64,000 bases of DNA. Origin: Candidatus Igneacidithiobacillus taupoensis (lineage in GTDB: Bacteria > Pseudomonadota > Gammaproteobacteria > Acidithiobacillales > Acidithiobacillaceae). Both the position numbers and the translations under genes were made by a program. The DNA lies in assembly GCA_021375695.1 (NCBI GenBank), contig JAEPKX010000001.1, positions 124,001 to 188,000 of the forward strand, in the 5' to 3' direction. Under the pieces are notes generated by a model, which was given only the letters and a program-made list of their open reading frames with translations, was not told the DNA's origin and made no database searches. Each line of letters begins with the position of its first letter. Position 1 is the stretch's first letter. Shown one piece after another: positions 4,374 to 38,693 of the stretch.

Positions 4374-4832
4374 TCAGTGACTGTCGCTCAATTGCGAAGT
4401 GCAATTGGGACAGCGGGTGGCAGCCAAGGGAATGGATGTCAGACAGTAGGGGCAATCTTTGGTGGTAACGGGCGCACTGGGCTTGGGATAGAGGCGGTTG
4501 ACCATTCGCACCATGCTGAAGATTACCAAGGCAATGATGAAAAAACTCACCAATGCCATGATAAAAAGGCCGTAATTCCAGGTTACCGCCCCCGCTTTCT
4601 CGACAGCAGCCAAGGTCAGATACGGCTCTGGCGTTTTTCCCTGGTGCAAAACCACAAAGAGGTTACTGAAGTCCATTTTACCCAACAAAAGGCCAATGGG
4701 AGGCATGATGATATCTTTGACCAGGGCCGTGACCACAGCCGAAAAGGCCGTACCGATCACAAAGGCTACGGCCAGATCAATACCATTTCCTCGTAGCAGA
4801 AATGTTTTGAAATCTTCCACAAAACGACTCAT
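4374..4832 (-). CDS. mscL: Large-conductance mechanosensitive channel MscL with C-terminal zinc ribbon
   Basis: This inner-membrane channel releases solutes on hypo-osmotic shock. The 152 residues comprise the N-terminal amphipathic helix (MSRFVEDFKTFLLRGN), TM1 with the gate (DLAVAFVIGTAF), a short periplasmic loop, TM2 and a charged tail. After TM2 come two CxxC pairs (CPYC and CPNC), a small zinc ribbon present in only a subset of MscL proteins. An in-frame TTG at 4868 would add 12 residues, but the ATG at 4832 has the AGGGAG ribosome site and matches the family start. It is cotranscribed with rmuC. Confidence 0.95.
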   Translation of the reverse strand: MSRFVEDFKTFLLRGNGIDLAVAFVIGTAFSAVVTALVKDIIMPPIGLLLGKMDFSNLFVVLHQGKTPEPYLTLAAVEKAGAVTWNYGLFIMALVSFFIIALVIFSMVRMVNRLYPKPSAPVTTKDCPYCLTSIPLAATRCPNCTSQLSDSH

Positions 4833-4913
4833 TTCCTCTCCCTTGGGTCCTAATTTTTTAGCAACCAATGATCCTTACAGAAATGCCCTGCAAAGGCATT
4901 ACAAAAATATCCA

Positions 4914-5444
4914 TCAATGGCTGGCCGGCAGACTGGTACAGAAACGATTCACACTTTCTTTCTCCGCTTGCATGGGAAATCTTTGCGCTGCCTGTAGACA
5001 GTTCTCGGTACTATCACGACAGGTCAGGGCCCATCGGGCAGTATCGCGAAAGAAGTTTTCGGCAGCTAGGCTCGGCTCGGCGTAGGGGCTACCCTGAAAG
5101 AAACGTCCCAAAGCCGAATAATAGTCCCCCTTGGCCGCAGCCCAGCGAGAAACCGCATCCCAGCAGGTAGATTGGCTGGCGCCTGGGCCCTGGACACAAC
5201 CCACTGCGTCTCGCCGTACCAGCCCCAAGGACTCCTGCCAGTCGGGGCAGAACTTTTGTTCCGCGGCATGTCGTTGGGCAGTGATGGCCGCCAGCCGCTC
5301 CTCTGCCAGCTGCGCGGTGTTTTGTGCCGCCTCCGAGCGTGCTGTGGCAATGGCTGCACCGGTGGAAACAGTAGGAGGAGGCAGTTGCGCACAGGCCCCC
5401 AGGAAAAATGGTAGCAAGAATAAAATGGTTGACTCTTTGCGCAT
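4914..5444 (-). CDS. Cysteine-rich outer-envelope lipoprotein, paralogue of 36700-37353
   Basis: I do not recognise a described family. The 176-residue protein has a lipoprotein signal (positive start, hydrophobic stretch, lipobox FLGAC with Cys18), a short Pro/Thr linker and a helical periplasmic domain. The mature part has six further cysteines (66, 83, 94, 142, 149, 169). Four of them, in the contexts GC, STCW and C-x6-CL, align with the lipoprotein at 36700-37353; the NFF-x3-AR segment before the third is also shared. Two disulfides are therefore likely. It lies 72 nt downstream of the RND permease gene on the same strand; a TATAAC in that gap could be a separate -10 box. Confidence 0.75.
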   Translation of the reverse strand: MRKESTILFLLPFFLGACAQLPPPTVSTGAAIATARSEAAQNTAQLAEERLAAITAQRHAAEQKFCPDWQESLGLVRRDAVGCVQGPGASQSTCWDAVSRWAAAKGDYYSALGRFFQGSPYAEPSLAAENFFRDTARWALTCRDSTENCLQAAQRFPMQAEKESVNRFCTSLPASH

Positions 5445-12613: not shown

Positions 12614-13884
12614 ATTTCCGCCGCTTTTGGTCCGATAGCCTGTTTGGTCGGATCTTTTTGCTGATTGGTGCCCTGCTGCTCGCCAGTCAACTCGCAGTCT
12701 ACTGGTACTTCAATCTCTATCTGGGCAATCCCCAAGCCCGGCATTTGGCCCAAGGCTGGGCACAGATTCTCACCCTCAGCAGTGCCCTGGATGTAGGCGA
12801 AGCCGAGTGGCTGGCCCCACGTCTGTCCCGGATTGGCATTGCCTTCTATCCCGTAGAGCGCATGCAGGGCCAGCCGCCCCACAATCCCATGCTCGCCAAC
12901 GCCGTCCAACTCCTCCATGGCCTGGGTTGGCCCGATGCCCAGGTCCGCATCGATCGGCGCCAGGGAATATTGTGGCTGGATCCCAACCAGAGAAGTCGGG
13001 TGGTCGTCGCCATCCCCATGCCCAAAGCACCTCCGGGACCTTCCCCGCAGTGGTTCAAACTGAGTGCGATTCTCCTATTGTCCTTGCTCGGGGCCTTCCT
13101 TATCGTCCATCAGATCACCGCACCGCTACGCCGGCTGGTCCAGGCTTTGCAGGTCAATCGCAATGGCGAGGGTCCACCGGAATTACCGGTTGCAGGACCC
13201 ATGGATATTCGGGAATTGGCCACGGAACTCAATGCTGCTTTGCGGGAGCGCTATTTGCTGACGGAGGAGAGAGAGATGGTGCTCCTGGGGGTATCCCACG
13301 ACCTGCGCACGCCCCTGACCCGAATGCGGATGCTGGCCGAATTTCTTCCCAAGGAGGCTGCCGAGATCCAACAGGAATTGGTGGACAATCTCTGGGAAAT
13401 GGATGAAACCTTGCATCAGTTCCTGGACTATGTCCGCAGTGGTCATGAGGAACTGGCCGAAGAAATTGATCTGGGGGCCTTTCTCCAAAATTTTGTGCAC
13501 GACAGCCCCTATTCCGAAATTCACCTGGAAGAGCTTCCGGCCCAAGCTCTCTACGTACATATCCCCCCGGTGGCTCTCAAGCGGGTGCTGCGCAACCTGG
13601 TGGAGAATGCCCGCCGTCACGCCCGCCCACCCATTACCCTTCGTTTGCTACCCTTGGGTACAGCCGTGGAGATTCAGGTGCGCGATCATGGCAACGGCAT
13701 CAGCGAAGAGAAGCGGGAGCTCCTAGGCAAACCCTTTGCCTTGGCCGGCAGAGGAGGTGGAACGGGACTCGGTATTGCCATCATTCATCGCATTCTCCAC
13801 CGGCTGGGCGGGAGCTTATCCATGGAAAACGCCAAAGACGGCGGCCTGCTGGTTCGCGTCCAGCTCCCTTTGCACACCAACTAG
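12610..13884 (+). CDS. envZ: EnvZ-type sensor histidine kinase
   Basis: This 424-residue inner-membrane kinase phosphorylates the adjacent OmpR. TM1 lies near residues 12-34. A ~120-residue periplasmic sensor contains the EnvZ-like WPDAQVRIDRRQGILWLDP, then TM2 (~145-165) and HAMP. The HisKA motif GVSHDLRTPLTRMRMLAEF is nearly identical to that of EnvZ, and the HATPase has NLVENARRHA, DHGNGI and GGGTGLGIAI. Translation starts at a TTG that overlaps the ompR stop, implying coupled synthesis. Confidence 0.9.
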   Translation: MNFRRFWSDSLFGRIFLLIGALLLASQLAVYWYFNLYLGNPQARHLAQGWAQILTLSSALDVGEAEWLAPRLSRIGIAFYPVERMQGQPPHNPMLANAVQLLHGLGWPDAQVRIDRRQGILWLDPNQRSRVVVAIPMPKAPPGPSPQWFKLSAILLLSLLGAFLIVHQITAPLRRLVQALQVNRNGEGPPELPVAGPMDIRELATELNAALRERYLLTEEREMVLLGVSHDLRTPLTRMRMLAEFLPKEAAEIQQELVDNLWEMDETLHQFLDYVRSGHEELAEEIDLGAFLQNFVHDSPYSEIHLEELPAQALYVHIPPVALKRVLRNLVENARRHARPPITLRLLPLGTAVEIQVRDHGNGISEEKRELLGKPFALAGRGGGTGLGIAIIHRILHRLGGSLSMENAKDGGLLVRVQLPLHTN

Positions 13885-13891
13885 GATACCG

Positions 13892-14218
13892 CTATCTTGC
13901 TGCCGGCGCCTCTTTGGGACAGAGTTTGCGCAATTGGGCCAGCTCCTTGGGTGAGAGGTCCTGCCAGGCAATATTCCCACAGCGACCGCTGATCTTGCCT
14001 TCCAGGGTCCCTTTCTGGGATACCCCGGGACCTACGGCAAAATCCGGCACCGACTGGCTCGAGATGAGTACGGCGGTATTACTCGACGCCCTGCTCCCGG
14101 ACGTGCTGGGCGTTGCTCCCTGGGGTTGCAACCACAGATAAAAAAACCCGATCAAGACCAGCAGGGTCAAAACCACAATAATCGCCGCCAACCATGATGA
14201 CTTGCTTTCTCGAACCAT
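13892..14218 (-). CDS. Small membrane-anchored protein, unknown function
   Basis: The 108-residue protein has a short charged N-terminus, one transmembrane helix (residues ~9-30, rich in Leu/Val/Ile), a Ser/Thr/Ala-rich linker and a small extracytoplasmic domain with two cysteines (GRCGN and KLCPKE) that could form a disulfide. I do not recognise a family. The ATG at 14218 has a GGAGGGG ribosome site 8 nt upstream; the ATG at 14233 does not. It is convergent with envZ (7-nt gap) and lies 24 nt downstream of uvrD on the same strand. Confidence 0.6.
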   Translation of the reverse strand: MVRESKSSWLAAIIVVLTLLVLIGFFYLWLQPQGATPSTSGSRASSNTAVLISSQSVPDFAVGPGVSQKGTLEGKISGRCGNIAWQDLSPKELAQLRKLCPKEAPAAR

Positions 14219-14242
14219 GGGCAACCCCTCCATACGATAGGT

Positions 14243-16369
14243 TCAGGATAGACGTTCCAGGGCAACGATGCCGAGGGCCAGCCACTTGCTTCCCGACGTA
14301 AACTGGACCTGGATCCGGCCCTGTCGACCACCACCCTCGTAGTCCAATACGGTCCCCTCTCCAAAGACCGGGTGGCGAATGCGGGCCCCCAAGGGAAAGG
14401 GACTCGCAGGATGAGCTGAAGACGATGCGGACAGGCCCGTCGACAAAACTGGGCGGCGGACCTGGGCTCGGGGACGTAACTCTTCCAGATGTTCTGCCGG
14501 AAGCTCCCGCAAAAAACGCGACGGCAGGGCCGGACGTTCACTGCCATGGATACGGCGGCTCTCGGCATGACACAAAACCAATTGGGTCATGGCTCTGGTC
14601 ATGCCCACGTAACATAAGCGCCGTTCCTCCGCGAGGCCCTGGGGATCCTCCAGATTGCGCAGATGGGGAAAGAGCCCTTCTTCCATCCCCACCAAAAAAA
14701 CCAGAGGAAATTCCAGCCCCTTGGCGCTGTGCAAGCTCATCAATTGGACGGCGTCCTGCCAACCCTCAGCCCCTGCTTCGCCAGCCTCCAGCGCAGCATG
14801 GGTCAAAAACTCACTGAGCAGATCTCCAGGAACAGGACTCAATTCCCGTAGACCCGCAGAGCTTTCTACCAAGGCAAAGGTACGGGCAGCATTGAGGAGC
14901 TCGTCCAGATTCTCCAGGCGACTTTCGCCGCGATCACCCTCACGGGCATACCATTCCCGCAAAGGAATGTGCTCCCACACCAGTCGCACCTGCTCCTCCA
15001 GACTACGTTCGGCACAAGCCTCGGCCAACTGATCAATGCTGGTCAAAAAGGCGTTCACCCTGGCCTGCCCAAGTTCACCGGCCGCTTGCCAGTAGGAGAT
15101 CCCCCGCTCCAGGCTATGTTGTCGTAAGCGCTCTACGGTGACGGCACCGATGCCCCGCGCGGGGACATTGATGACCCGTTCAAAAGCGGCATCATCGTGT
15201 CGATTCAGCACCAGTCGCAGATAGGCGAGGGTGTCTTTGATTTCCGCGCGCTCAAAGAAGCGTAAGCCGCCATAGACCCGATAAGGAATCCCTTCCCGTA
15301 CCAAATGCTCTTCAAAGGGTCGGGATTGGGCGTTGGAACGGTAAAGAATGGCACAATCAGCCCGCTTCCCTCCCGCCGCCACCCACTGGACGACTCGCGC
15401 CACCACAAAGCGGGCCTCGTCCTCTTCGTTGTAGGCTCGATAGAGTTGCACGGGAGCTCCGCCCGTCTGGGCTGTCCACAGGGTCTTGCCTAGGCGTTCC
15501 GGATTGCGGGCGATGACCTGGTTGGCCACCGCCAAAATGGGCGCGGTGGACCGGTAGTTTTGTTCTAGACGAACGAGTCGGGCACCAGGAAAGTCCTGAC
15601 TGAAGCGAAAAATATTTTCCACCTCGGCTCCACGCCAACCATAGATGGACTGATCGTCGTCCCCCACCACAAAGATCTGCCCGTGGGCGGCGAGCTTGCG
15701 CAGCCACTGATACTGCACTGCATTGGTATCTTGAAACTCATCCACAAGGACATGCTGAAAGCGCTCCTGATACTGGGCCAGGAGTGCCTCGTCCTGCCAC
15801 AGGCGCAAGGCATAGAGAAGCAGATCGGCAAAATCCACCCCACCGGCACGCTCCTTCAGTTCTTCATAGCGCCGATAGGTAGCTAACACTGGCTCAGGAA
15901 CACTGGGATCTTGCCGCAAATCCAGGGGCCCGATGCCACCATCTTTCCAACGCCCAATGCGGGCAGCTATCTGCTTGGGATTCCAGTGCTTGTCCTCCAG
16001 ACCCAGATCCTTGAGCGCCCGGCGGACCAGGCGTTGACTATCATCGGCATCAAGAACCGGAAACTGGGCCGGCAAAGAGAGTACCCCGTGGTGCAGGCGT
16101 AACAGGCGATGGGCAATACCGTGAAAGGTTCCCATCCACAGGCCCCGCAGATCTTCCTGGACGAGTTGGTTAAGACGGGCACGCATGGACTGGGCGGCCT
16201 TGTTGGTGAAGGTGACCGCCAGAATTTGCCCCGGGGAAATTCCCTCTTCGAGCAGGTGGACGATTCGACTGGTGAGTACCCGCGTCTTGCCCGATCCGGC
16301 CCCCGCCAGGACCAGTACGGGACCAGGGGGCAAAGTCACGGCCTCCTGCTGCCGTTCGTTTAATTCCAT
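14243..16369 (-). CDS. uvrD: DNA helicase II (UvrD)
   Basis: The 708-residue superfamily 1A 3'-5' helicase acts in nucleotide-excision and mismatch repair. Visible motifs, in order: QxxAV Q-motif near the N-terminus, Walker A AGAGSGKT, TFTNKAA, VDEFQDTN (Walker B), GDDDQSIYGWRGAEVENI, LEQNYRS, and VGMTRAMTQLVL near the end. WMGTFHGIAHRLLR and the KxWNPKQ region fit UvrD better than Rep. The C-terminal ~60 residues form a Tudor-like domain (ARIRHPVFGEGTVLDYEG). ATG 16369 was preferred to a TTG further upstream. It is divergent from cbpA. Confidence 0.96.
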   Translation of the reverse strand: MELNERQQEAVTLPPGPVLVLAGAGSGKTRVLTSRIVHLLEEGISPGQILAVTFTNKAAQSMRARLNQLVQEDLRGLWMGTFHGIAHRLLRLHHGVLSLPAQFPVLDADDSQRLVRRALKDLGLEDKHWNPKQIAARIGRWKDGGIGPLDLRQDPSVPEPVLATYRRYEELKERAGGVDFADLLLYALRLWQDEALLAQYQERFQHVLVDEFQDTNAVQYQWLRKLAAHGQIFVVGDDDQSIYGWRGAEVENIFRFSQDFPGARLVRLEQNYRSTAPILAVANQVIARNPERLGKTLWTAQTGGAPVQLYRAYNEEDEARFVVARVVQWVAAGGKRADCAILYRSNAQSRPFEEHLVREGIPYRVYGGLRFFERAEIKDTLAYLRLVLNRHDDAAFERVINVPARGIGAVTVERLRQHSLERGISYWQAAGELGQARVNAFLTSIDQLAEACAERSLEEQVRLVWEHIPLREWYAREGDRGESRLENLDELLNAARTFALVESSAGLRELSPVPGDLLSEFLTHAALEAGEAGAEGWQDAVQLMSLHSAKGLEFPLVFLVGMEEGLFPHLRNLEDPQGLAEERRLCYVGMTRAMTQLVLCHAESRRIHGSERPALPSRFLRELPAEHLEELRPRAQVRRPVLSTGLSASSSAHPASPFPLGARIRHPVFGEGTVLDYEGGGRQGRIQVQFTSGSKWLALGIVALERLS

Positions 16370-34544: not shown

Positions 34545-35786
34545 CTACCGTGGGTGACCACACTCACCACAAAACCGGTCTTCCTCCGACAGTGCCGCCC
34601 CGCAGTTTGTACAAAATATGCTTTTGTCTTGCGCAGGCACGGAAGGTGCATGCTCCGAAGATCGGGAACAGGCAGTGGCGCGTTGTAGCAGTTCGCGGGT
34701 TTGCTGGGCAGCCGTTGCCGCGCTACGACGTGTTGCTTCTGCCGCAGCACTGAATTTCTCCATGACGCCACTCATCACCGCAGCCCCTGCCTCGGTATCA
34801 ACGAGTCGAGCGCTATCGTGATAGAGATAGGCTAACCCTAACTGCAACACCGTATTAGGAATCGCCACAACTACCACCCCCAAAGCTGCAAAGGCGATCA
34901 AGAACGAGTAAACATACAGACGATCATTGATGGAAATGTGGGCAAAAGCATAGGACAGGTACGTCGGGAATCCGGCACCAACTCCGCCGCCAAAACCTGC
35001 CAGGGGGGCCTGAAAAAGGCTTGAGAAAGAAAATAAAGATGCCAGGGTTTCCTGCACGGCACTGCCCATGGCCCCCACGATGAGAGATTGGGAGAGCATC
35101 CCCGCGTAGAGAGCGATTACCGCCAGGGCTCCTGCCACCAGGAGATACATTAAAAACAGCATTAACATCACAAAAATTGTCGGGCCCGGCCGAGAACGTG
35201 CGACCGCAATGACATGACCGAACGCATGGCGTATGGTCTCCCCAAACCAAAGTGCCGGGCCACTCAAATTGAAGACCACAAAAGCTATCGCCGTAAGCGC
35301 AATGTTGAAGAGAAACAGTGCCGGAAAAACTGCCAGGGAGAGGATTCCCCCAAGAACGGGAATACGACAGATTTCGATGACGATCACTTCGACTAGCAGT
35401 AGTCCAAGAAGTGTAAGCAACTCAATGGCAAGCAGGCCGACGAGTCTTGGCAGCGTTATCAAGCCAAACAAGAGGCTCGCACCAATACCTGGAATCCCCC
35501 GTTCCTGAACAGTTGCTGCAAGACTGAATCCCGCACCAAGATAGCCGGCCCCGGCAAATGCCAGATCAATGATCCCACCTAGGAAAGCAAAGAGCAGCGC
35601 CGCAAGGCCGCCTAAGCTGGAACCGAGGCGAACCAGCACCAGCATGGCCGCGAAACCAAGGAAGAGGGAAATCACCAGGATCGCCATGGGTCGCCACAGG
35701 GTAAGACCACGAAGGGATTTGAGGAGAATCCCCAGGTCTAGCTCCGGTTGTTCATGAACAGCAGTTGCAGCAGCAGGAATCATCAT
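34545..35786 (-). CDS. Polytopic membrane protein with C-terminal zinc ribbon, unknown function
   Basis: I do not recognise the family. The 413-residue protein has a short cytoplasmic N-terminus (with PELDLGILLKSLRGLTLWRP) and about eight hydrophobic segments rich in Gly/Ala/Leu between residues ~33 and 325. A helical Ala/Thr/Arg linker then leads to a C-terminal zinc ribbon (CTNCG and CGECG, 11 residues between pairs). The ribbon resembles that of the next gene upstream and the four in the protein at 37379-38578. Start ATG 35786 (or 35783) has GGGGG upstream. It is last in a four-gene minus-strand cluster and lies 91 nt before mnmG. Confidence 0.7.
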   Translation of the reverse strand: MMIPAAATAVHEQPELDLGILLKSLRGLTLWRPMAILVISLFLGFAAMLVLVRLGSSLGGLAALLFAFLGGIIDLAFAGAGYLGAGFSLAATVQERGIPGIGASLLFGLITLPRLVGLLAIELLTLLGLLLVEVIVIEICRIPVLGGILSLAVFPALFLFNIALTAIAFVVFNLSGPALWFGETIRHAFGHVIAVARSRPGPTIFVMLMLFLMYLLVAGALAVIALYAGMLSQSLIVGAMGSAVQETLASLFSFSSLFQAPLAGFGGGVGAGFPTYLSYAFAHISINDRLYVYSFLIAFAALGVVVVAIPNTVLQLGLAYLYHDSARLVDTEAGAAVMSGVMEKFSAAAEATRRSAATAAQQTRELLQRATACSRSSEHAPSVPAQDKSIFCTNCGAALSEEDRFCGECGHPR

Positions 35787-35824
35787 TGGAAACCCCCAGG
35801 ACGTAGCAGGAATGCAAAGGAAAC

Positions 35825-36628
35825 CTAGCGTAGATCGGCACCGCAACTACCACAGAAAAGATCTCCGGGCGAAATGGGTGCGCGACACTGGGGACAAAGA
35901 GCTGCGGCTTGTTGGGCTGATTCATGTAGACTAGCCGCTTCGGACGCAGCGGCTGGGGCTATATTACCAGGCAGCGAGATTCCTCGGGTATTTTTTTCGA
36001 TCTGCACCAGCACGGGAAGAATCATGGTAAGAATGAAAATAATCATGGCCGAGATGATCAGGCTAAAGATCACCAGTCTTTCGATTTTGGATTTTGTTTT
36101 TTCTGCATTTGCTGCTTCTACGGCGGAGGAGAACTCATTTATATATTGCTGGGTAAGCATATCTGCGGTGCCTGGTGTGCCATCGCTATTACCAATTGCC
36201 TGGTACACTCCAGTTTTTTTGGCGTAAGCCAACCCTTCCTGCAAATAGGTGCGCCACCCCGAGATAAAATCCTCCCGATATCTCTCTGGCAGCTGCATGA
36301 GGATTTTGATGATCGCTGCCGTTTTCACGTCCTGAATACCATATTTGGAAATAATGGAGATAATTTTATCTCCATATTCCGCGTTTAGTTTCACCTGCTC
36401 TTTTTGCTGGGCAATATTGCTCTGTTGTTCGGACATATTACTGATCATCGTTTGCCGTGCCTGTGCATCGAAGCTCGGCACCTTGAAAGCGGAACCCAGT
36501 GATAGCATATAAACCACACCAAAAACGATAGCAATCAGGGCAAGAAGAGCAAAAAACAGGGAAAACCATTTGCCGATGGCAAACAGTTTCCCAGTAATAC
36601 CCCCGCTGACGGATTTGTTGTGCGACAT
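35825..36628 (-). CDS. Two-TM membrane protein with C-terminal zinc ribbon, unknown function
   Basis: I do not recognise the family. The 267-residue protein has TM1 near residues 22-44, a ~140-residue probably periplasmic helical domain (Gln/Lys/Ile-rich, with IISKYGIQDVKTAAIIKILMQ), TM2 near 185-208, an Ala-rich linker and a C-terminal zinc ribbon with Cys 245, 248, 259 and 262 (CPQC, CGSC). With both termini inside, the ribbon is cytoplasmic. A strong AAAGGAG ribosome site precedes ATG 36628. It is separated from the upstream lipoprotein gene by a hairpin-rich spacer. Confidence 0.72.
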   Translation of the reverse strand: MSHNKSVSGGITGKLFAIGKWFSLFFALLALIAIVFGVVYMLSLGSAFKVPSFDAQARQTMISNMSEQQSNIAQQKEQVKLNAEYGDKIISIISKYGIQDVKTAAIIKILMQLPERYREDFISGWRTYLQEGLAYAKKTGVYQAIGNSDGTPGTADMLTQQYINEFSSAVEAANAEKTKSKIERLVIFSLIISAMIIFILTMILPVLVQIEKNTRGISLPGNIAPAAASEAASLHESAQQAAALCPQCRAPISPGDLFCGSCGADLR

Positions 36629-36664
36629 TTCAAGAGCTCCTTTGGGAAGGAATGGTTATGGTGA

Positions 36665-36709
36665 TGGGGGATGTTACCCCCACCTGTAGGTGTTGATTCC
36701 TATTGAATC
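36665..36709. repeat. Cluster of three small inverted repeats between lipoprotein and zinc-ribbon genes
   Basis: Three adjacent inverted repeats lie at the lipoprotein stop codon: TGGGGG/CCCCCA (36665-36682, 6-nt loop), CACCT/AGGTG (36681-36692, 2-nt loop) and GATTC/GAATC (36695-36709, around the stop). There is no T run on either strand, so an intrinsic terminator is unlikely. An mRNA-stabilising or processing element inside the operon is more plausible. Confidence 0.45.
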
Positions 36710-37353
36710 GCTGGCTGATTATCGGCTGGGGGAACCATAGTTGGGTTACGCAATGCTTCCAAATCATTGTTCACCGCCTGATTTTCATAACCCAGGGCAC
36801 CACTGGTACTGCTTGGTACAATCCGGGTGCCCATCAGATAACTGTCTACGGACTTTCGTTCGCTGTCCATCTCCCTTCTCAATGCACTTTGTCGCAAACA
36901 GTTCTGGGTACTGACTGCGCAGGCCGTGGCATAGCGCGCAGAAAAATGGAAAAAATTGATGGCGGCATCTTTCGCCAGCGTAAATCTGCGGCTTTGTTCC
37001 GGCGTCAAACCAGAAACCGTCATCCCGGCAAATTGATTGGCATAATTCAGCGACTGCTCTTGGAGATGTTGCCAGCAGGCCTGGTGACTACCATATCCTG
37101 CGCTTGCCGAAAGCGAACACTGCTCCAGGTCATTTTTCATGGTGCCCTTGGCAGCTTCCCAGTCGCTTACAAATTGTCGACTAACGTTGATGCCAGCCTG
37201 TTTGATATTGGCCTGGGCTTGGGCCTGATCCAGGGAAATCGGCAGGGGAGGAGCGACTGTGCCATATTTGTTGGAACATCCGGCCAACTCCATCACCGTA
37301 ACCAAGGCGGTGGCAATCATCATGAATTGTCGTGGTGTATTTCGCAGCTTCAT
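36700..37353 (-). CDS. Cysteine-rich lipoprotein, paralogue of 4914-5444
   Basis: No described family is recognised. The 217-residue precursor has a signal with lipobox MELAGC (Cys26), a Pro-rich linker, then a helical periplasmic domain with Cys 79, 93, 145 and 152. The motifs ACWQ, AAINFF-x3-AR, and C-x6-CL followed by an acidic-basic helix with SV align with the lipoprotein at 4914-5444, which keeps the same four cysteines. The ~45-residue C-terminal extension rich in Asn/Pro/Gln is unique to this copy. The ATG at 37353 has AAGGAG 6 nt upstream. It is embedded in the zinc-ribbon cluster. Confidence 0.75.
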   Translation of the reverse strand: MKLRNTPRQFMMIATALVTVMELAGCSNKYGTVAPPLPISLDQAQAQANIKQAGINVSRQFVSDWEAAKGTMKNDLEQCSLSASAGYGSHQACWQHLQEQSLNYANQFAGMTVSGLTPEQSRRFTLAKDAAINFFHFSARYATACAVSTQNCLRQSALRREMDSERKSVDSYLMGTRIVPSSTSGALGYENQAVNNDLEALRNPTMVPPADNQPAIQ

Positions 37354-37378
37354 CGCAGACTCCTTTGCAGAAAACAGG

Positions 37379-38578
37379 TTAATTGGTACCGCCAAAAGGG
37401 GAGAGAATCTTTTGCATTTGTTCCTTGGTGGAGGACTCTGTACTGGGTGCAGACTTTGAAATAGCAGCCTGTTCTGCCACTTCTGGGCGCACGCCAGGGG
37501 CCACCGGCCGTAGCGGTGGATGAGTTATCGCTGCGGCTTTGGCAATGGGCGAATGTGTTTCCACCACGTTGGGGGTCTTTTTTTCCACCGGTTGTACGGC
37601 GGCACTGGAAGCACTTTGCGGGGCTACCGAAGCGCCTTGGGCAGTCTGTGCCGAAGTTGGATTCGTGACAGACGGGCTTGTCGTAGTAGTAGCCTTAGCA
37701 GTGGTTCCAATGACTGGGCTTTTGCTGACTGCATTGACCGTAACGGCTTGCGAGGACAAGGGCTTTGTCCAGTACTCATAAGCAAAATACCCACCCACAG
37801 CGCAGATTGCCAGCAAAGATATAGCCAGAATTATCCAGATCAATCTTTTCGTTGACGGTTGGGGCAATGCCTGGCCGTCAGCACCCTTGGCAACCGGTCG
37901 ATTCTCCGCCCCGCATTGTGGACAAAAGCGCTTCCCTCCCAACGCTGCGCCACAACTCTTGCAAAATTCAGCCTGTGTAGACACCGGGATCATTTTTTCA
38001 GGGTGGGGAAGATCGGGAGTGTCCATCCCCGTATGTCCTGACACTGGTGATGGTGGCAGCGACTCTGGTGGAGCAGGGCTGGCGGCTGGATGCCCCGTTG
38101 CCAACAACGGCTCTGATGGTGGAACCGTCTCCAATTCCAGGGAGCCAGAAGATGCTGGGCCATCACCCGGTGTCGTGGTAACCGAAAGCTCTTCCTGGGC
38201 TTGTTTTTCCTGACTGTCCGCCCCACAGGAAGGACAGAAACGCTTCCCTTTGCGGTTCGCCCCACAAAGCTTGCAGAAACTTTCCGGGGCAGCTTCCATG
38301 GACGCAGCAGGAACGACTGGCTCTGTGCACTTTGTTTCCGGCGGCAAGGAACGCTCCAACAAGGCAGGGGATTTCTGCAGCTCTGGCGCTACCGTGACCA
38401 CTGGATTCAGGTTATCAGCGCCACAGGCGGGGCAGAAACGCTTCCCTTTGCAGTCCGCTCCACAACGTATACAGGGAACTACAGCTGGATTTTTCTCTAA
38501 GCCGTATAATGGTTTTCCACAGTGAGAACAAAAATTTCGATTCGGAGAATTTTCTGACTGACAAGCATCACAGCGCAC
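37379..38578 (-). CDS. Membrane protein with four N-terminal zinc ribbons, unknown function
   Basis: The 399-residue protein has four zinc ribbons of the CxxC...CxxCG type at residues 3-20, 36-52, 102-118 and 206-222. Three of them share a GKRFCPxCGA core. Pro/Ser/Glu-rich linkers separate the last two. One transmembrane helix (~246-265) is followed by a ~130-residue Ser/Thr/Ala/Pro-rich extracytoplasmic tail. By the positive-inside rule (TKR before the helix) the ribbons are cytoplasmic. I chose GTG 38578, which has AAAGGA 8 nt upstream and starts directly at the first ribbon; the open frame reaches ATG 38671, which lacks a ribosome site. It is first in the four-gene cluster. Function unknown. 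Confidence 0.72.
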   Translation of the reverse strand: MRCDACQSENSPNRNFCSHCGKPLYGLEKNPAVVPCIRCGADCKGKRFCPACGADNLNPVVTVAPELQKSPALLERSLPPETKCTEPVVPAASMEAAPESFCKLCGANRKGKRFCPSCGADSQEKQAQEELSVTTTPGDGPASSGSLELETVPPSEPLLATGHPAASPAPPESLPPSPVSGHTGMDTPDLPHPEKMIPVSTQAEFCKSCGAALGGKRFCPQCGAENRPVAKGADGQALPQPSTKRLIWIILAISLLAICAVGGYFAYEYWTKPLSSQAVTVNAVSKSPVIGTTAKATTTTSPSVTNPTSAQTAQGASVAPQSASSAAVQPVEKKTPNVVETHSPIAKAAAITHPPLRPVAPGVRPEVAEQAAISKSAPSTESSTKEQMQKILSPFGGTN

Positions 38579-38670: not shown

Positions 38671-38693
38671 TTACTAATTGCTTGTGTTAGTAA
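38671..38693. promoter_or_regulatory. Inverted repeat TTACTAA-N9-TTAGTAA at predicted start of transcription
   Basis: A perfect 7-bp dyad (38671-38677 and 38687-38693) lies immediately downstream of the candidate -10 box of the zinc-ribbon operon, so it would cover the transcription start. That is a typical place for a repressor operator. The cognate regulator is unknown. Confidence 0.4.

Follow-up and report, generated by a model that had tools for sequence, protein, structure and literature searches.

Membrane proteins with mini zinc ribbons (PF13240, PF13248 and PF12773) are among the described groups closest to the locus reported here. Three proteins encoded at this locus, which we call ZR, P3 and P4, carry ribbons of this kind. 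The family names, however, cover only a small generic domain, and the remainder of P3 and P4 has no family match. To our knowledge, no described system combines three ribbon membrane proteins with a lipoprotein, and literature searches on ribbon/LemA/TcaA/Acidithiobacillus combinations returned nothing relevant.

Three further families touch on the locus. TraT is an outer-membrane surface-exclusion protein. This lipoprotein is known from the F plasmid and from chromosomal homologues across several phyla, including one in A. caldus, and both its role and its neighbours on these chromosomes are reported as unknown (PMC11733297). TraT co-occurs with the locus, but the lipoprotein encoded there (LP) differs from it, being a predicted helical bundle without a PF05818 match. 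A member of the LemA family (PF04011) takes the position of P3 in a variant locus, whereas P3 itself has a second transmembrane helix (TM) and a ribbon. The superinfection immunity protein PF14373, encoded on another contig of the same genome, is likewise a small membrane protein with a ribbon at its C-terminus; it is unlinked to the locus, and its similarity to P3 and P4 is limited to the ribbon. The parts are thus familiar in kind, whereas their combination is undescribed in the literature that we found.

Here we analyse a stretch of 64,000 nucleotides (the window) from Candidatus Igneacidithiobacillus taupoensis. It lies on contig C28 of a genome of 1.73 Mb with 98% completeness. A contig from a genome of this family matches Acidithiobacillus plasmids, in accord with Acidithiobacillaceae. 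The four genes very probably build one undescribed envelope-spanning structure.

Organization of the cassette

The cassette consists of four minus-strand genes in the order ZR, LP, P3 and P4. All four open reading frames of the preliminary description were found again, and their coordinates are collected in Table 1. The GTG start of ZR at 38578 (protein beginning MRC) aligns with the start in relatives, and an upstream ATG at 38671 is a possible alternative. In two close pairs of relatives, dN/dS ranges from 0.05 to 0.61 and stays below 1 in 8/8 comparisons, therefore supporting all four as real genes. LP has the lowest values of the four (0.05–0.10) and is the most constrained. A consensus scan for promoters yielded sites no more numerous than in shuffled sequences.

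Table 1 Features of the cassette and a related gene in the window
Feature	Position	Strand	Basis or remark
ZR, 399 aa: cytoplasmic part with four mini zinc ribbons, single TM, disordered tail in the periplasm	37379..38578	-	start GTG at 38578
ZR transmembrane helix, residues 246-264	37787..37843	-	
ZR conserved C-terminal peptide EQMQK[IL]LSPFGGx[ND], proposed docking motif	37382..37423	-	conservation among relatives
LP, lipoprotein with its lipobox Cys at residue 26, another four invariant Cys and a predicted four-helix bundle (41-174)	36700..37353	-	
P3: two TM, all-helical periplasmic domain, C-terminal zinc ribbon	35825..36628	-	
P3 zinc ribbon (PF13240)	35831..35896	-	whole-genome PF13240 scan
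P4: polytopic, ~6 hydrophobic segments, C-terminal zinc ribbon	34545..35786	-	start probably ATG 35786 or 35783
P4 zinc ribbon (PF13240)	34551..34616	-	whole-genome PF13240 scan
Short distant LP paralog, lipoprotein with common W/C pattern, outside the cassette	4914..5444	-	

The ribbons of ZR follow the pattern CxxC-x(8-14)-CxxC and are located at residues 3, 36, 102 and 206. Its tail contains a linker of 121 residues rich in A/S/T/P, followed by 14 final residues. Majority identity is about 87% over these last 14 residues vs 49% over the preceding linker. A tail that varies except at its conserved end suggests docking, and the C-terminal peptide is therefore predicted to be a probable docking site. 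In P3, the TMs lie near residues 24-42 and 185-203, followed by the ribbon at about residues 245-266. The ribbon of P4 occupies residues 389-410 of the 411-residue translation used.

LP had been described as a cysteine-rich lipoprotein, and its lipobox (LAGC) together with four more invariant cysteines bears this out. Its location needs refinement. Under the usual Lol rule, Ser or Ala as the +2 residue favours the outer membrane. LP, placed earlier simply on the periplasmic side, has Ser/Ala at +2 and would thus probably be anchored in the outer membrane. The short LP paralog in the window adjoins mscL (4374-4868). In other genomes, similar weak LP paralogs have carAB-like genes as neighbours (L068-L071, L073); the one of G007 (L072) is flanked by an RND pump gene and mscL.

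Zinc ribbons are concentrated in the cassette

ZR, P4 and P3 score 51.8, 31.1 and 27.8 bits against PF13240, all above the curated cut-off of 25, in line with the earlier observation that three of the four proteins share one ribbon type. A whole-genome scan finds PF13240 in only four proteins, three of which are ZR, P3 and P4, and this clustering exceeds chance. The fourth protein (G000:C45:15953-16060; L034:6945-7328) is a membrane protein of 127 aa that combines the superinfection-immunity domain PF14373 with a C-terminal ribbon.

Related ribbons were observed elsewhere. A phage-type integrase in G013 (L032:6639-7841) has a C-terminal mini zinc ribbon. In G251, a Lipoprotein_16/SHOCT lipoprotein adjoins a zinc-ribbon RDD membrane protein (L140:6601-7996), forming a further pair of ribbon protein and lipoprotein.

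Conservation and mobility of the gene order

P4 with a ribbon is encoded in 9/29 genomes of the family, and in 9/9 of these LP and ZR are contiguous with it and in the same order. P3 accompanies them in 8/9, being missing in G010, which has the order ZR-LP-P4. The full order ZR-LP-P3-P4 is found in G026, G021, G015, G007, G003, G001 and G013. In G013, it is split by two identical IS1595-type transposase genes (308 aa each; L030:9804-10730 and 13368-14294), which interrupt P4 and ZR. LP is found in 10/29 genomes, with nine strong matches and one divergent match (G008). The preliminary description proposed a single system; the genes prove to be contiguous and ordered in other genomes, in differing neighbourhoods, so that the proposal withstands its own check of co-occurrence.

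In the window, the cassette lies between mnmG and moaB/ntrX, an interval that lacks it in G004, G003, G007 and G010. In G021 and G010 it adjoins genes for cytochrome c assembly and for an MFS protein, in G007, G003 and G001 traT and a fructose-bisphosphatase gene, and in G026 a different traT. A single clade for the genus of the window is rejected by the LP and P3 trees (AU 1e-6 and 4e-9); P4, taken alone, is compatible with one (p 0.12). MnmG, by contrast, goes with the genus (83% against 72%). Moreover, GC3 is 0.50–0.55 in the cassette vs 0.60–0.66 in the flanking genes, and the lower value fits acquisition. The interpretation that the four genes are a single system that moves horizontally as one unit is well supported, because their order is kept while their sites vary, the LP and P3 trees conflict with MnmG, and GC3 is lower.

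Most genomes of the family encode a P4 paralog that lacks the ribbon. Duplication followed by acquisition of a ribbon may thus have given rise to the P4 of the cassette. The reverse order, in which ribbon loss gave the paralog, may also apply, because G252, a genome from another family, likewise has a ribboned P4.

Variant loci point to a smaller core

P3 is also missing from two divergent loci. The first, in G008 (L067:4043-6870), occupies the cytochrome c assembly/MFS site and encodes a ribbon-less ZR-like protein, an LP homologue, a LemA-family protein (PF04011, E 5e-32) at the P3 position and, in addition, a small membrane protein that weakly matches TctB. The ZR-like protein has modest profile similarity to ZR over the TM region (probability 70%) and ends in LNQLMSPLG, an echo of the C-terminal motif of ZR. 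Because G008 keeps LP together with this protein, ribbons would not be strictly needed for the ZR/LP part. Particularly, the joint persistence of LP and a related motif makes LP the likeliest docking partner for the ZR peptide.

The second locus, in G252 (L137:9036-12241), belongs to a different family of the class (f108). It encodes a ZR with two ribbons, a TM and a tail ending in SLDDLLD, a lipoprotein that shows no detectable similarity to LP, and a ribboned P4 that matches the P4 profile at a probability of 99.9%. Because this genome from outside the family has ZR, an unrelated lipoprotein and ribboned P4, the core probably consists of the ribbon scaffold, some lipoprotein and P4 with its ribbon, while the presence of P3 and the kind of lipoprotein differ between loci.

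Association with TraT

The host genome encodes TraT on the same contig as the cassette (G000:C28:90349-90981, E 3e-77). TraT is present in 10/10 genomes with LP vs intact in 4/19 without LP (Fisher p 5e-5); p is about 1e-3 when fragments are included or the comparison is restricted to the more complete genomes. Correction for relatedness leaves 2-4 concordant pairs and none opposed, with p at least 0.125, so that the link is only suggestive and TraT is a candidate partner only.

The traT gene adjoins the cassette in G026, G007, G003 and G001 and lies elsewhere in 6/10 LP genomes. The adjacent TraT of G026 belongs to a separate lineage from the other adjacent TraT proteins (AU 2e-60), and adjacency therefore arose at least twice. 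The TraT of G007 has matches to TraT chains of solved structure (E 4e-47). A second traT of G026 (L116:1-6801), sister of its cassette-adjacent traT, stands behind genes that by eye resemble type IV secretion genes. Inspection of parts of the window revealed no tra operon, and a simple ORF and motif scan of eight other genomes of the class found no ribbon neighbours of the cassette type among the TraT loci of other families listed.

Sequence and structure searches

The preliminary description matched the proteins to no known pathway, and profile searches agree, with only the generic ribbons hitting known families. LP has no Pfam family at E<=1, including the TraT profile PF05818. No significant hit came from PDB sequence searches with profiles of LP, P3 and P4, and Foldseek comparisons of the P3 and LP models with PDB structures yielded none at E<=0.001. 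The AlphaFold models of P3 and LP are only moderate (pLDDT 70); in the LP model, the core is a four-helix bundle.

Over 369 genomes of the class, the LP profile is found in this family only. Over 398 genomes of the phylum, matches to the P3 profile outside the family mostly cover only the ribbon. A scan of genome contigs with P4 produced only a match in a Chloroflexi MAG, which likewise covers just the ribbon and was judged spurious.

Proposed assembly and alternative explanations

We tentatively propose, with a probability of roughly 0.45, that the genes form a mobile cassette for one multi-protein envelope complex acting with TraT at the outer membrane. Within the inner membrane, the mini zinc ribbons on the cytoplasmic side would bring ZR, P3 and P4 together; the scaffold would be ZR, the sole multi-ribbon protein, and the membrane core P4, related to the ribbon-less housekeeping paralog. 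The long flexible tail of ZR would cross the periplasm, and its conserved C-terminal peptide would dock on LP, a putatively disulfide-stabilised bundle, while the helical periplasmic domain of P3 would brace the assembly. In the weakest step, the complex and TraT would modify the cell surface barrier at the outer membrane, excluding conjugation, phage or solutes. An envelope-spanning complex is consistent with the predicted topologies. In addition, it is plausible that the ribbons serve as assembly tags for inner-membrane proteins, because they are common to the three such proteins and absent from the P4 paralog. We regard as rather unlikely a new class of modular envelope-spanning machine in which housekeeping membrane proteins are recruited once they gain a ribbon tail as an interchangeable tag, and the scaffold tethers them by a flexible arm to a replaceable lipoprotein, together constituting the hitherto missing partner of chromosomal TraT in the inner membrane.

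An accessory system for exclusion or against mobile elements, in which the cassette aids TraT in blocking plasmid or phage entry, would suit the mobile and patchy cassette, the TraT gene in every LP genome, the sister relation in G026 between the adjacent TraT and the one behind type IV secretion-like genes, and the superinfection-immunity domain on the genome's one further PF13240 protein. The searches speak against it and leave it doubtful. PADLOC defence models gave no match of note among the window proteins, the marginal KwaA match of P3 (E 0.012) beginning in a TM segment. PHROGs were informative for none of the proteins outside the ribbons; ZR alone matched, over ribbon or TM stretches (best E 3e-8), to entries of unknown function. 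LP was not found in plasmid and viral collections, nor were the lipoprotein and P4 of G252 in plasmid searches. TraT, moreover, is also chromosomal across several phyla, without a known role there (PMC11733297).

The ribbons might instead sense zinc or thiol oxidation, or relay a periplasmic signal from LP and P3, with P4 as the output of an envelope stress or redox/zinc sensor. The four invariant cysteines of LP and the position of the cassette near ntrX/ntrY in the window are in keeping with such a role, as is the four-helix bundle, whose weak and non-significant PDB matches (E 0.1-1) include periplasmic sensor domains and ligand domains of chemoreceptors. A sensor is nevertheless also doubtful: the ntrXY-side location is not common to the relatives inspected, G008 retains the ZR-like/LP pair without ribbons, and in profile searches none of the four proteins showed a DNA-binding, kinase or sigma/anti-sigma domain.

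That P3 substitutes functionally for LemA in a membrane-maintenance module, with a part in general envelope shaping, is suggested by the LemA protein of G008. This is a single case, the function of LemA is itself unclear, and P3 matches neither the PF04011 profile nor its G008 counterpart (probability 0.5%), which makes such a module very improbable. The notion of four unrelated membrane genes that gained ribbons independently and are neighbours by chance could appeal to the frequency of mini zinc ribbons on unrelated proteins, such as the integrase and RDD protein mentioned above, but it is effectively refuted by co-occurrence, the same contiguous order at several sites, block horizontal transfer and the presence of 3/4 of the genome's ribbon proteins in the cassette.

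Implications

Membrane proteins with ribbon tails are widespread, yet there is hardly any explanation for them. A mobile cassette with three ribbon proteins and a lipoprotein, together with a P4 paralog lacking the ribbon, allows a direct test of the idea that ribbons are assembly tags. Through its association with TraT, the cassette also offers a first candidate partner for the chromosomal form of that protein.
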